A stretch of 9,342 nt of DNA, taken from contig JAHEDF010000128.1 of assembly GCA_024641365.1 (NCBI GenBank), positions 1-9,342 on the forward strand, in the 5' to 3' direction. The translations under genes were made by a program, and so were the position numbers. This DNA comes from Planctomycetota bacterium. GTDB lineage: Bacteria; Planctomycetota; UBA11346. This document shows positions 701-4,897 of the stretch, in pieces. Each line of letters opens with the position of its first letter. The first letter of the stretch is position 1. The notes beneath the pieces are model-generated. The model was not told the DNA's origin and made no database searches. It was given only the letters and a program-made list of their open reading frames with translations.

Positions 701-761
701 GGTCAGCGGATTAAAGTTATATTAATCAATATAATATCGCTGCATGCTTATTATTAATTTC

Positions 762-807
762 AAAAAACGGCAGGTATTGGCAACTGCTTTGCAAACACCT
801 GCCGTTT
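762..807 (-). terminator. Intrinsic terminator of the sigma-factor gene
   Basis: AAACGGCAGGT (765-775) and ACCTGCCGTTT (797-807) form a perfect 11-bp stem with a 21-base loop. Read on the minus strand, the stem starts 7 bases after the TAA of the sigma gene and is followed by a run of T (complement of the A run 762-767). The stem and T run are typical of Rho-independent termination; the loop is longer than usual. Confidence 0.85.
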
Positions 808-814
808 CTAAATG

Positions 815-2032
815 TTATGGTTTAGGTCCGATAAAATAAATTTCTTTTCCATCCTCGGATTGTCTACCGCGAGCTTGCTGTGCCGTACCGCCGAGTAATT
901 CGGCAATTTCATCTAATGCTTGCTTCACTGGCTTATTTTTCGCTTCGTAGGTGATGGTTTTTTCATCAAAAGACCCATCAATAATTACGGATAAACCTGA
1001 CTGTCTTTTTATAAATGCCGCTAAGGTCTTTCCCGACACTTCTTTTAGACTAAGCGTGATGCCATTGTCTACTGCGTTCTTTTCATTTGCCTCAGCCCTG
1101 GGGGCTTCTGCATTTGGTTTACCTGCTTGGTTTATGGGTTTCTCATCTGACTGCACTAAACGCTTTACCAATTCCTCGGCACTTGGTGTACTTGCTTCGG
1201 CTCTTAGTTGTGGATCTGATTTCACGGAAACATCAATCGCCGCGAGTCCCGTCGCTCCGATTGTAGCAACGAGGCCAACAATAATTAATGGTGATTTTAT
1301 TGCTGCTATGGTAATATGCATGCAGGCTCCTTCTGCCAATGAACTGGCGGTGGTGGTTTTTGCGAGAGATAATAATGATTTTGCACTTGGAATAATGGAG
1401 GTAAATTCCTGTGCGAAATTTTGGCTCATACAGGTTAATAATGTAGCGGCGGTTATTGGAACACGCTTACGCGCAAAATATTTCCTGAGTCTTTCCATGC
1501 CCCGATTTGTTAATTTATAGGCATTCTCAACGGTAACATTTAACCGCTGGGCAATTTCTTGTGTCGTTTTATTTTCTGCTTGTAGAATCACAGCTGCCCG
1601 TTGCTTATCTGGTAATTTCAACAGAGCCTCATCCAGTTGCGTTAAAATTGCCGCGTCCGGTTCTAAATCATTATTTTGTACTCTTGACTCGTTCGCAGGT
1701 AATGTGTTCATCAGTTTAGTGCGATTTTTTTCCGCTCTGCGCGCGTCGCGACACACAAAATGACAAACTCGCAGTAACCATGCGGCTAGCGCCGGAGCAC
1801 GTTCTGCTGCTTTTGGACGTCGAACTAAAACAAGAAAAACAGCCTGTACACAATCGTCTACTTCCGCTGCTGGCACTTGCCGCCGACAGGCATTCTTAAC
1901 CATTTGTTGATAGCGAGTCACCAACATTGAAAACGCTTGGTCATCGCCATGACCAAATGCCTTCAATAAAGTGGCATCATCGCTTAATTTATATAACGCA
2001 GAATTCCCTGCGACCTGGACTGCACCGGACAT
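815..2032 (-). CDS. ECF-type sigma factor fused to a membrane segment and an STN-like domain
   Basis: A 405-residue protein. Residues about 16-105 are sigma-70 region 2 (core binding and -10 recognition), including DDCVQAVFLVLVRR at 59-72. Residues about 134-188 are region 4 with the helix-turn-helix TTQEIAQRLNVTVENAYKL. Ordinary ECF factors end there. This one continues with a linker, a single hydrophobic segment (247-266, SPLIIVGLVATIGATGLAAI), a charged low-complexity stretch and a C-terminal domain (about 325-382, ITLSLKEVSGKTLAAF then VIIDGSFDEKTITY and KPVKQALDEIAELLGG). That pattern matches the secretin/TonB short N-terminal (STN) fold, also seen at the end of FecR-type regulators. Predicted topology is sigma domain in the cytoplasm and STN domain outside the inner membrane. 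The start at 2032 was chosen for its strong AGGAGG site; an upstream in-frame ATG at 2101 has none. No separate anti-sigma gene is visible. Target promoters are unknown. Confidence 0.87.
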   Translation of the reverse strand: MSGAVQVAGNSALYKLSDDATLLKAFGHGDDQAFSMLVTRYQQMVKNACRRQVPAAEVDDCVQAVFLVLVRRPKAAERAPALAAWLLRVCHFVCRDARRAEKNRTKLMNTLPANESRVQNNDLEPDAAILTQLDEALLKLPDKQRAAVILQAENKTTQEIAQRLNVTVENAYKLTNRGMERLRKYFARKRVPITAATLLTCMSQNFAQEFTSIIPSAKSLLSLAKTTTASSLAEGACMHITIAAIKSPLIIVGLVATIGATGLAAIDVSVKSDPQLRAEASTPSAEELVKRLVQSDEKPINQAGKPNAEAPRAEANEKNAVDNGITLSLKEVSGKTLAAFIKRQSGLSVIIDGSFDEKTITYEAKNKPVKQALDEIAELLGGTAQQARGRQSEDGKEIYFIGPKP

Positions 2033-2376
2033 CGACCCCTCCTCAGATGATAGGATTGTAGTCTTGTCAGGGGTATCAAAAAGAAGCGCTGTCGATTTCA
2101 TAGTTAGTTCTGCAATTACTATGGCAGCTGAGCACGAGGTTTGGACAACCACTTTTCATGAGTCAATTTTGGCCACTACTATCGCTTAAATTGCGTGATG
2201 TGGATCCAAACGATCTGGCAGCATTAATAGGACGGGAATATCCACTAAGGCCCTAATAAATTTCTTATGTACTACAATTAAGCCAAAATAGAACAGTGCA
2301 CAATCAATCTAGCCATCAAAGAACATTGGCGTATTTAATTACTAATATTATAATCTAAACATTAATAGAGCGATTT
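2033..2376. other. Non-coding region between ftsA and the sigma gene
   Basis: 344 bases separate the ftsA stop from the sigma-factor start. The ftsA-proximal part (about 2250-2376) is AT-rich. I see no convincing gene, no ftsZ remnant, no hairpin with a T run that would end the ftsA transcript, and no clear sigma-70 promoter. A promoter for the sigma gene is expected here but may be of an alternative class that I cannot recognise. Confidence 0.6.
2036..2043 (-). promoter_or_regulatory. Ribosome binding site fixing the sigma-factor start
   Basis: On the minus strand AGGAGGGG ends 3 bases before the ATG at 2032, and its AGGAGG core ends 5 bases before it. It decides for this start over in-frame candidates at 2101 and 2152, which lack a comparable site. 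Confidence 0.85.
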
Positions 2377-3771
2377 TTATTCGATTTCCCTCGTCAGCCA
2401 ATTCCACACACCGCTAGCGGTTTTACGGATGCGCGAGGAATGGTGCGCTAAATGGGTGCGCCGTAAATCCGCCGCCGTGCATACTAATCCACTCACTAAA
2501 ACATCGGCTAATTCTGCGCTCGGGTCGCGGTTTTTATGGCCAGAGCCTAACACTACGGTGAGGCCAAAAATATCACGTAAGAACATAGCGATGCCGCCAA
2601 GTGAACTAGCACGACCAACTAAATGGACCTGACCATGTTGCACTAAATGTCCGTGATCGCGTAGTTCTTGTGCGCGGGCGCGGAAAAATGAACCAACCGC
2701 TTCCGACATAATGGTCATGGCTGGCCCTAATAAACGATGCCGCTCACGTACATCGCTCCAAATAAATTGTTGGCCCATATGGTTATCGCGGTCATCTAAA
2801 CGTTGTGATATATCAAGATCGCGTTTTAAATCTTCTGCCTGCGATGGTGTGATTTGTAATTTTTCAACTAATAAACGGGTCAGATCTTCGCCGCCAAAGG
2901 CGTACGTTTCAATATGCATTAAACGATCTTTGCGCTTGACTAAAAACGTGGTGCAGCGAGCGCCGCAATCAATAATGACAGTATTTGTTTTTCGCGGTAA
3001 GGCGCCTGCGATACCACGATATAAGGCAACTGGTTGGGCAATAATGCCTTCTAAATCTAAACCAAGACCGGCAACTAATTCGGTTAATTCTTCGCGATAA
3101 CCACGGCGTGCCGTAATTAATAATGCCTGACAGGTGAGACGGCTGCCGCGTTCACCAACGGGTTCTTCAACATCACGTTCACCATCACGATCACGTACCG
3201 TCCATTGCACGGGAATGGCATCAATTAATTCCTGATCCGCTCCCGTTGCCTGATCGCGCGCCCGTTTTAGTGCCCATAAGCGTTCATGTTCAGTTAAAAT
3301 AACTTCGTCACCGGGGTCAGCCCAGCCAACCGCAATGCGTGATGAAAAACTCGCATCATTCATCGAGACATATAATGAATATGCTTCAACGCCGGCTGAA
3401 TCGCATGCTAATCGTACTGCATCAGCTAACGCTTCTTGCTTGCCGCTTTGACTTAAATGATGCCAATCACAATCAATGGATTTGTGTGCCACCACTTTAT
3501 CGCCATGAGTCGGATGCAAGGCCGCTACGGTCGCACTGACGCGGCGACTCGAAACTTGTGCTATTACCACTAAATGCTCTGGAGCGATGTGCACTCCGAG
3601 GCGTTTTGAAAGGCCCACCTGTTTCGTTTGTGTTTGTCCAATATTTCTGGCAAAATTTGCCACGCGACCAAACCAACGACTCGACTGTAGGCGATTCGTC
3701 GTTTCAGTCGGACGCTCCGCATGCTCGTGTGTCGATGGTAATTCGTCTTCTGTCCAGGTGGCTTTGCGCAT
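2377..3771 (-). CDS. ftsA: Divergent cell division protein FtsA
   Basis: FtsA is an actin-like protein that normally tethers FtsZ to the membrane and recruits later divisome proteins. This 464-residue version has a charged N-terminal extension of about 57 residues. The core begins at GVHIAPEH (59-66). The FtsA-specific 1C subdomain carries EEPVGERGSRLTC (about 202-214), matching the family DPVGxxGxRLE pattern. The C-terminus (447-464, ending GVWNWLTREIE) looks like the amphipathic membrane-targeting helix of FtsA. All three nucleotide motifs are degenerate: phosphate 1 reads HIAPEH instead of DIGTxK, phosphate 2 reads IDCGARCTT instead of VDIGGGTTD, and the adenosine motif reads LVGRASSLGG instead of LTGGASxLxG. 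PilM is the main alternative, but the 1C motif, the helix and the position after ftsQ favour FtsA. The start at 3771 was chosen because GAGGT lies 4 bases upstream; longer frames would run back into ftsQ. No ftsZ follows. Confidence 0.88.
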   Translation of the reverse strand: MRKATWTEDELPSTHEHAERPTETTNRLQSSRWFGRVANFARNIGQTQTKQVGLSKRLGVHIAPEHLVVIAQVSSRRVSATVAALHPTHGDKVVAHKSIDCDWHHLSQSGKQEALADAVRLACDSAGVEAYSLYVSMNDASFSSRIAVGWADPGDEVILTEHERLWALKRARDQATGADQELIDAIPVQWTVRDRDGERDVEEPVGERGSRLTCQALLITARRGYREELTELVAGLGLDLEGIIAQPVALYRGIAGALPRKTNTVIIDCGARCTTFLVKRKDRLMHIETYAFGGEDLTRLLVEKLQITPSQAEDLKRDLDISQRLDDRDNHMGQQFIWSDVRERHRLLGPAMTIMSEAVGSFFRARAQELRDHGHLVQHGQVHLVGRASSLGGIAMFLRDIFGLTVVLGSGHKNRDPSAELADVLVSGLVCTAADLRRTHLAHHSSRIRKTASGVWNWLTREIE

Positions 3772-3775
3772 GAAG

Positions 3776-3780
3776 ACCTC
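3776..3780 (-). promoter_or_regulatory. Ribosome binding site of ftsA
   Basis: GAGGT on the minus strand lies 4 bases before the ATG at 3771 and overlaps the ftsQ TGA. This supports the short start of ftsA and coupling to ftsQ translation. Confidence 0.7.
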
Positions 3781-4897
3781 AGGGTTGCGAAGCGACATGC
3801 TGCGCATCACGCAGCACGAAATACGGTTGTTTAAACCGTACGTTGATTGAGGCGACGCGACTAACGTCACCTTGTGATCGTAGGCTATGAACTAAATCGC
3901 GAACTTTATCCGCTGGTTTAATGCCATAGCGATCATCATTTGGACGTCCCCAAATTAAACGGCTACCGTGACGGGTATATAATACGATGCCACGTTGAAT
4001 GCCGCGTTGATCGAGTACGTCATATAAATGAATGTCTGTGATTAAACCCGCTTCGACTTGTGGTTCAAGTAACTTCCACATGCCGAGCGCCGTTTTTACC
4101 CCTTCAATTCCAGCCCACTCAATAGCGCGTAAAACTGGACGGCGCACTGAAGGACCGGCTAATGAACCTGGTAATAAATAGCCGTCATTATCTACCCACG
4201 CCCGCTCACCACTTGCTAATACGACCGGCATAACCGGCTGGCGAAGCGCCATGACCACTTGTAAATTCCGCTGTAATTGTTCGGGGTGATTAGCAATCGG
4301 TACATGAACGACACTAATTTCCTGAATTTCTGAGACCATGGGTTGTTTGCGTAAATAATCTGCTAATTCCCCTAATACCGCAGGATCGCCATTGCGTAAT
4401 TGAGCCGCTTTAGGGAATACGCGAATCCATTTTAAGACTTCTGCATCTGGTACTTTTGGTCCAGCCAACCATCGTACTTGAAAACCACTGACCGTTAATG
4501 GAGCCGGACTCTTATCGATGGCATAGAAACTAAACACGACCAGCAATGCAATCATTGAAACAGCAGCGCAGCCCCACAAACCTAAACGTACTAAACCGTT
4601 TTGCGTTAATTGGGCGCCGCTTAATCCGGCATGAATGCCACGGGTGACGAGTCCAGGATTAGCCTTTTCGTCGTTTTTATTCATGGCTGCCCGTTTAGCT
4701 GGTTTCTTTTTCGCCCGTCGGCGAGCTGGTTTTTCCGGTGCTTCGCTGTCATCCATTTCAACATCATCGAATTCGGTATCTAATTCATCATGACCAATGC
4801 TATCGACTAACACCTTGCGTTGTCCTTTGCGTTTGCGTTCAGCAACGGCAATTAATTCTTCGATTTCATGTTCAGAGGTCACATCGGCTCGACTCAT
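3779..4897 (-). CDS. ftsQ: Cell division protein FtsQ/DivIB
   Basis: FtsQ is a bitopic inner-membrane divisome protein that links early cytoplasmic and late periplasmic division proteins. This one has 372 residues. It has an unusually long cytoplasmic tail of about 103 residues: an acidic cluster (about 37-55, with DTEFDDVEMDD) followed by a lysine- and arginine-rich block (59-69, RRRAKKKPAKR). One membrane segment follows at about 104-126 (LGLWGCAAVSMIALLVVFSF). The periplasmic part has a POTRA-like region (about 134-200) and the FtsQ beta domain, recognisable by LQVVMALRQPVMPVVL and WVDNDGYLLP (212-243). Sequence similarity within this family is always low, so position between ddl and ftsA carries weight. 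Its ATG overlaps the ddl TGA as ATGA, with GGGAG 6 bases upstream. Confidence 0.9.
   Translation of the reverse strand: MSRADVTSEHEIEELIAVAERKRKGQRKVLVDSIGHDELDTEFDDVEMDDSEAPEKPARRRAKKKPAKRAAMNKNDEKANPGLVTRGIHAGLSGAQLTQNGLVRLGLWGCAAVSMIALLVVFSFYAIDKSPAPLTVSGFQVRWLAGPKVPDAEVLKWIRVFPKAAQLRNGDPAVLGELADYLRKQPMVSEIQEISVVHVPIANHPEQLQRNLQVVMALRQPVMPVVLASGERAWVDNDGYLLPGSLAGPSVRRPVLRAIEWAGIEGVKTALGMWKLLEPQVEAGLITDIHLYDVLDQRGIQRGIVLYTRHGSRLIWGRPNDDRYGIKPADKVRDLVHSLRSQGDVSRVASINVRFKQPYFVLRDAQHVASQP

Follow-up and report, generated by a model that had tools for sequence, protein, structure and literature searches.

An extracytoplasmic function sigma factor joined through a single predicted membrane span to an STN-type domain in a planctomycete

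Results

Sigma factor gene and domain architecture

The window analyzed here, the whole 9,342-nucleotide (nt) stretch of contig JAHEDF010000128.1 (NCBI GenBank assembly GCA_024641365.1), derives from the chromosome of a planctomycete. The end of a histidine kinase gene (2–613) lies on the plus strand; murG, murC, murB, ddl, ftsQ, and ftsA lie on the minus strand. Their families were assigned with Pfam and NCBIfam, except that the gene taken to be ftsQ from its position had no NCBIfam match. The only gene between the kinase gene and ftsA encodes a protein in which sigma regions 2 and 4 of an extracytoplasmic function (ECF) sigma factor, a hydrophobic span, and an STN domain follow one another in one chain. 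This arrangement had been proposed in a sequence-only reading of the window and was borne out by Pfam matches above cutoff for the sigma regions, by hydropathy, and by AlphaFold. The gene and the parts of its product are as follows.

815–2032, minus strand: gene for the predicted tethered ECF sigma factor, 405 residues plus stop, ATG at 2032
1727–1924, minus strand: sigma region 2 (residues 37–102), Pfam Sigma70_r2, E = 1.7e-8
1487–1639, minus strand: sigma region 4 (residues 132–182), Pfam Sigma70_r4_2, E = 3.3e-11
1292–1477, minus strand: juxtamembrane segment, predicted to be cytoplasmic (residues 186–247), two short helices and the start of the span helix
1235–1291, minus strand: single predicted membrane span (residues 248–266), hydropathy 2.15
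1064–1234, minus strand: predicted flexible linker (residues 267–323), AlphaFold predicted local distance difference test (pLDDT) blocks 40–58
818–1063, minus strand: STN domain (residues 324–405) of the secretin N0/FecR C-terminal type, from profile, AlphaFold, and structural matches

Both PF04542 and PF08281 scored above the Pfam cutoff in this protein, and TIGR02937 (NCBIfam) matched it with an E of 5.2e-20; sigma region 3 gave no Pfam match at E up to 10. Most of regions 2 and 4 was modeled by AlphaFold at a pLDDT of 90 or more. When the whole model was compared with known structures, ECF sigma factors such as Escherichia coli sigmaE ranked highest, and SigW was also matched. Hydropathy (Kyte-Doolittle alone) placed the best 19-residue window at residues 248–266 with a mean of 2.15, the runner-up reaching 1.28, and this segment, which the sequence-only reading had put at 247–266, fell inside an AlphaFold helix covering residues 227–268. 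Ahead of the span, helices were modeled at residues 195–207 and 217–223, with pLDDT blocks of 53–81 over residues 191–250. A span-like segment within 130 residues after the sigma profile was present in 107 of 115 homologs at a median distance of 63 residues (the 115 being our 122 pooled homologs minus seven with fewer than 60 residues after the profile), and the same test applied to the first 170 residues was positive in 2 of 122. Within planctomycete genomes, 41 of 45 distinct frames had the span, at a median distance of 60 residues; these frames came from searches with a query from the STN-sigma family and are not a census of planctomycete ECF sigma factors.

The C-terminal domain predicted by the sequence-only reading at about residues 325–382 proved to be real and longer than proposed, extending over residues 324–405. 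It did not reach the Pfam STN cutoff (E = 0.11; at most 13.4 bits versus 28.4). A profile built from the STN repeats of homologs, leaving out the window protein, gave the window protein 35.2 bits, whereas the highest score among 2000 shuffled versions of its C terminus was 6.6 bits. The STN fold (two beta-alpha-beta units) was present in the predicted models, with the order strand-helix-strand-strand-helix-strand-strand at a pLDDT of 86–96 in the AlphaFold model, and comparison of the domain with the PDB ranked STN-type domains highest, led by the PupR STN. A sequence-profile match to the N0 domain of PilQ (4ar0) had an E of 5.4e-6 over positions 2–76 of 78, and FecR_C (PF16344) was above cutoff (32.3 versus 24.4) in the homolog P0007 (homologs, genomes, and loci carry our prefixes P, G, and L). 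The secretin pore domain PF00263 gave no match in the window protein at E up to 10. The STN domain had been described as an unusual output, a view that did not hold: the STN of PupR (PMC7186176) and the one-chain protein IutY (PMC5411451) are precedents, and the domain is better read as a sensor, that is, as an input.

With Pfam matches admitted up to E = 10, the protein showed no anti-sigma or FecR domain; its DUF4179 match (E = 3.8) was at the level of chance. No PupR-type juxtamembrane all-beta subdomain was present between the span and the STN domain, where the linker was 57 residues long, strandless, and of low model confidence.

Distribution of the architecture and other fused modules

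Good-scoring STN repeats, between one and four per protein, were present in 17 of the 122 pooled proteins (six of the 17 supplied repeats for the profile), and weak ones in four more; most of the 17 relatives had tandem repeats, and the window protein has a single STN domain. The homolog search recovered the same order of sigma, span, and STN in 16 other proteins, 31–45% identical to the window protein; P0003 was apparently cut short within its STN repeat. Within the host's order, at least 4 of 23 genomes (G001, G002, G132, and G295, scanned in the frames of the match list) had STN-bearing members, and the 45 planctomycete frames included four with clear STN repeats and two with weak ones. A first genome scan with a single protein as query gave zero matches, and a profile scan gave five loci, two of them weak (L004 and L005); for the phylum sample the count was at least 35 of 294, with five candidates scored per genome. 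An artifact, in which misassembly or a frame error joined two genes, is extremely improbable and is already refuted, because the homologs show the same order, in the 16 other proteins and in four genomes of one order, and the frame at 815–2032 is open throughout.

A phylogenetic tree built on the sigma part placed the window protein with P0002–P0005 (support 97/94). STN presence required seven changes on this tree, of which well-supported branches make at least four unavoidable; the count of seven depends on uncertain labels of the weak cases P0008, P0031, P0037, and P0038. A second group (P0008, P0037, P0038, L046, and L047, with P0037 and L047 looking like one protein) had a single STN-like end domain, with a profile-profile probability of 96.6.

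Other modules followed the span elsewhere in the family. HlyD adaptor domains were found in the ECF sigma fusions P0056 and P0066, a TonB C terminus in P0101, Poly_export in P0009, and PDZ plus an S41 (Prc-type) protease in P0098, a possible case of a sigma factor that brings along the protease for its own release. An outer-membrane efflux domain was found in P0118 and a thioredoxin domain in P0120, each with a marginal span (1.58 and 1.45, respectively), and a sugar-hydrolase-type domain below threshold in L003. Because most of these modules are extracytoplasmic parts, they support a C terminus that lies outside. ECF sigma factors of Tuwongella have been found in Triton and SDS fractions (PMC8567305).

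A wider, tentative reading, which we regard as unlikely, is that planctomycetes and their relatives built transcription factors from pieces of envelope machines, in the form of anchored sigma factors that each display a machine part. The parts would be secretin STN repeats and, in the pooled homologs, HlyD, the outer-membrane efflux protein, Poly_export/SLBB, the TonB C terminus, and S41; the displayed part would dock on its machine, and assembly or use of the machine would free the sigma factor. On this reading, the tandem STN repeats of the present group would have been taken from secretins and would let the sigma factor sense a secretin without the help of an anti-sigma factor. The literature searched yielded no experimental study of such fusions between tethered sigma factors and parts of envelope machines.

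Kinship of the STN domain and candidate partners

Among the proteins examined from the same genomes, the closest relatives of the homologs' STN repeats were long secretins. The second repeat of P0007 with its leading linker was 52% identical over 109 residues to a secretin of G001 (phmmer, 90 bits), which itself had Pfam TPR, N0, and secretin matches, the N0 match being below cutoff. An STN domain was present in 12 of 16 secretin frames, drawn from 32 match rows in six genomes, and two of the four misses were truncated frames.

Several of these secretins had features of their own. Long secretins (758–885 residues) with a mid-chain STN domain were found at L149:707-8186, L150:463-3015, and L151:2-2536; some long STN secretins were encoded in tandem, including three in a row on contig 4 of G295. 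When two long secretins were checked with Pfam, one had TPR, N0, and secretin matches and the other the secretin match only. The best local match of L151 to P0002 paired the first half of one STN repeat with the second half of the secretin STN, hinting that STN half-domains have shifted in register.

The sequence-only reading had suggested either a secretin or a TonB receptor as partner, and the evidence favors the former. None of 19 TonB-receptor loci in G001, G002, G132, and G295 carried an STN domain by our profile (19 of 21 matches were read, at least two of them cut off at the N terminus), and Pfam STN on the TonB-receptor contigs gave no receptor match either; its five matches in these four genomes were four secretin frames and one TPR protein. 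The tally of 0 of 19 receptor loci, compared with 12 of 16 for secretin frames, does not favor a TonB receptor as the STN partner. This result bears on an alternative, strict cell-surface signaling of the IutY/FecR kind, in which the N-terminal signaling domain of a TonB receptor would contact the STN domain and the sigma factor would control the receptor gene. The PupR STN that heads the structural matches is the partner of the PupB signaling domain (PMC7186176), TonB receptors occurred in all six genomes examined, and IutY has the same gross order of sigma, span, and periplasmic regulator (PMC5411451). We nevertheless consider such signaling improbable, in view of the receptor loci without STN, the lack of a receptor gene in the window, and the absence of the juxtamembrane subdomain required for binding by PupR, in whose place there is a low-confidence linker of ∼57 residues.

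A FecR gene with STN was also considered as the source of the module and was rejected on the evidence of the FecR-domain loci, none of which carried STN among the 15 read (12 in G001, two in G132, and one in G295) of 20 matches in four genomes, the five of G002 being left out. Separately, 10 of the 11 FecR loci L134–L144 in G001 had a frame of 174–234 residues immediately preceding the FecR gene, the arrangement of classical sigma/FecR pairs, and five of those 10 frames matched the sigma profile.

Insertion site, neighboring genes, and local signals

Three further features lie around the gene.

614–2376, no strand assigned: stretch missing from the interval between the kinase gene and ftsA of two close relatives, G001 and G177
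2036–2044, minus strand: Shine-Dalgarno-like GAGGAGGGG upstream of the sigma gene ATG, by direct reading
761–807, minus strand: candidate terminator for the sigma gene (two 19-nt arms, a 5-nt loop, and a T run following on the minus strand)

The distance between the kinase gene and ftsA is 1763 bases in the window and 72 in G001 (a Planctomycetota metagenome-assembled genome, isolate CH-Jul18-104, which carries L001 and whose MurC is 78% identical to that of the window), with no sigma gene there in G001. In G177, two matched blocks (kinase and ftsA) lie about 25 bases apart, again without a sigma gene; the relatives L156–L160, in which the kinase gene was not found, are uninformative on the insertion. 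The simplest reading is that the sigma gene was gained in the window's lineage; two losses are possible. A functional link of the sigma gene to the cell-wall and division cluster was rejected, because the kinase gene and ftsA adjoin without it in both G001 and G177. A mobile element was rejected as well, positions 560–2450 having no plasmid match and no obvious flanking repeat pair. As the sequence-only reading had stated, no anti-sigma gene is present next to the sigma gene in the window, its neighbors being the histidine kinase gene and ftsA.

GGAGG lies 5 nt upstream of the ATG of the sigma gene on the minus strand (plus coordinates 2038–2042), and the gene's GC content at third codon positions (GC3) of 0.355 is inside the range of the neighboring genes (0.309–0.401). 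The terminator-like inverted repeat I1 occupies 765–783/789–807, its T run being identified by direct reading; the terminator scan did not list the site. Promoter-like sites in 560–2450 were fewer than expected by chance (2 versus 4.9 in shuffles), and an Rfam scan of the window gave zero matches. The intact frame, Shine-Dalgarno sequence, and GC3 speak against a drifting paralog, that is, a mobile, lineage-specific copy that keeps its sigma-STN fusion without a dedicated signal, as does the recurrence of the architecture in 16 proteins at the identities given above. The absence of the gene from the site in the two close relatives, the differing neighbors in the five STN-sigma loci read, and the diverged, single STN domain of the window copy would suit such a paralog, which we judge quite improbable.

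Near L001 lie a gene for a 3-keto-disaccharide hydrolase and an operon that is presumably of the deoxy-sugar type, as judged from the sequence rather than from a family search; L104 has a family 28 glycosidase and a META protein as neighbors, L106 has an EF-hand protein, and the neighbors of L105 were unassigned. Two side observations concern the window itself. An unassigned open frame of 32 residues starting MSQFWPLL (2158–2256, plus strand) lies between the sigma gene and ftsA on the opposite strand. The window carries ftsA and ftsQ (2377–4897), yet none of six genomes (G001, G002, G132, G295, G177, and G190) had an FtsZ/tubulin match in a search that was positive in 13 of 14 control genomes; ftsA homologs were present in G001, G177, G190, and G295. 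FtsA seems to persist without FtsZ in the host's order, although the genomes may be incomplete.

Discussion

We propose, with a probability of roughly 0.5, that the window protein is a one-component transmembrane sigma factor that is silent while tethered, makes a secretin-type STN contact, and is released by proteolysis. The N-terminal ECF sigma domain would reside in the cytoplasm, the single span would serve as anchor, and the one STN domain would face the periplasm. The intact, tethered protein would be kept from RNA polymerase, and the juxtamembrane segment is a candidate for silencing the sigma domain. In the periplasm, the STN domain would make contact with a second domain of STN type, a secretin being its most likely source. 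On a change in this contact, an S41/Prc-type protease would trim the periplasmic part, an M50/RseP-type protease would cut the span, and the freed sigma domain would start transcription. Tethering and release by proteolysis are plausible by analogy: IutY is trimmed by Prc and cut by RseP, and its truncated form is constantly active (PMC5411451); for PupR and FoxR an STN-STN contact has been proposed to control proteolysis (PMC7186176, PMC11637429). Because of this analogy, we expect the tethered sigma factor to be idle until its STN domain changes. Both protease families, S41 (Prc-like) and M50 (RseP-like), were found in 6 of 6 genomes examined.

Several observations weigh against this proposal. 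The protein has neither a recognizable anti-sigma domain nor a PupR-type juxtamembrane subdomain that could account for sigma silencing. The nearby protease, secretin, or TonB receptor gene that the sequence-only reading had suggested looking for is absent from the window, and the five STN-sigma loci read (the window, L001, L104, L105, and L106) share no common neighbor gene. The presence of S41 and M50 proteases says little, because both are widespread (positive in 10 of 14 and 14 of 14 control genomes, respectively). The window STN has diverged: its direct secretin matches reach 15.8 bits at best and are to shorter secretins (frames of 558–643 residues), unlike those of the homologs, which match long ones; its secretin kinship is therefore by family and not by itself. 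A secretin is also not the sole candidate partner, since a 725-residue frame on contig 102 of G001 (L133:2592-4766) has an STN match and TPR repeats without a barrel or secretin domain; it was caught by Pfam STN and missed by our own profile.

Cleavage might also be dispensable. STN contact could free the sigma domain from the juxtamembrane helices, so that the protein would work membrane-bound or by conformation, as has been proposed for ECF41 and ECF42, other ECF sigma factors with C-terminal extensions. The similar juxtamembrane length across the family and the two modeled helices would agree with this, and extensions acting by conformation or interaction have been described (PMC8999054). 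The extensions of ECF41 and ECF42, however, consist of SnoaL-like and TPR domains, for which the part of that review covered here mentions no span; for span-bearing extensions the review expects proteolysis and has IutY as the experimentally characterized case. We consider action without cleavage somewhat unlikely.

The protein resembles several known systems and differs from each. IutY of Pseudomonas putida (ECF243 in PMC8999054), to which we liken the protein by description and not by sequence, is also an ECF sigma factor with one span and a periplasmic signaling part in one chain; the TonB receptor gene iutA lies beside it, whereas the window gene adjoins a histidine kinase gene and ftsA, and the periplasmic domain of IutY is two-part, whereas here a single STN domain follows a short, low-confidence linker (relatives have as many as four STN domains). 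In PupR, the STN is the C-terminal subdomain of a sigma regulator behind a membrane span (PMC7186176). Proteins of this PupR/FecR type share with the window protein the single span followed by a C-terminal STN domain; their N-terminal domain is an anti-sigma domain, whereas here the N terminus is the sigma factor itself, and PupR has a juxtamembrane beta subdomain. The N0/STN domains of secretins (PilQ, GspD, and the long planctomycete secretins) resemble the window domain in fold and sequence profile, the pore domain being absent here. Planctomycete tethered ECF sigma factors likewise have a C-terminal extension with a span ∼60 residues after region 4 and then an outer module, which here is an STN domain, an interaction domain of envelope machines.

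One-chain sigma factors with periplasmic signaling (IutY), an STN domain behind a span (PupR), and planctomycete ECF sigma factors with extensions are thus already known. The literature searched yielded no example of the full combination, in which a sigma factor is joined directly to STN arrays related to secretins and no anti-sigma domain is present, and no paper on a sigma factor with STN repeats; the main ECF classifications and planctomycete surveys were outside its scope, and the combination is not established as new.

Transfer of a signal from the envelope to a sigma factor usually needs a separate anti-sigma factor, and the STN-sigma family would do so in one chain, so that a single molecule might pass an envelope signal straight to genes. 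With a sensor apparently shared with secretins, the family would be a minimal system for testing sensing, tethering, and release through the exchange of one domain, and the wider group of tethered sigma factors that carry parts of envelope machines would give clear predictions of what each of them senses.
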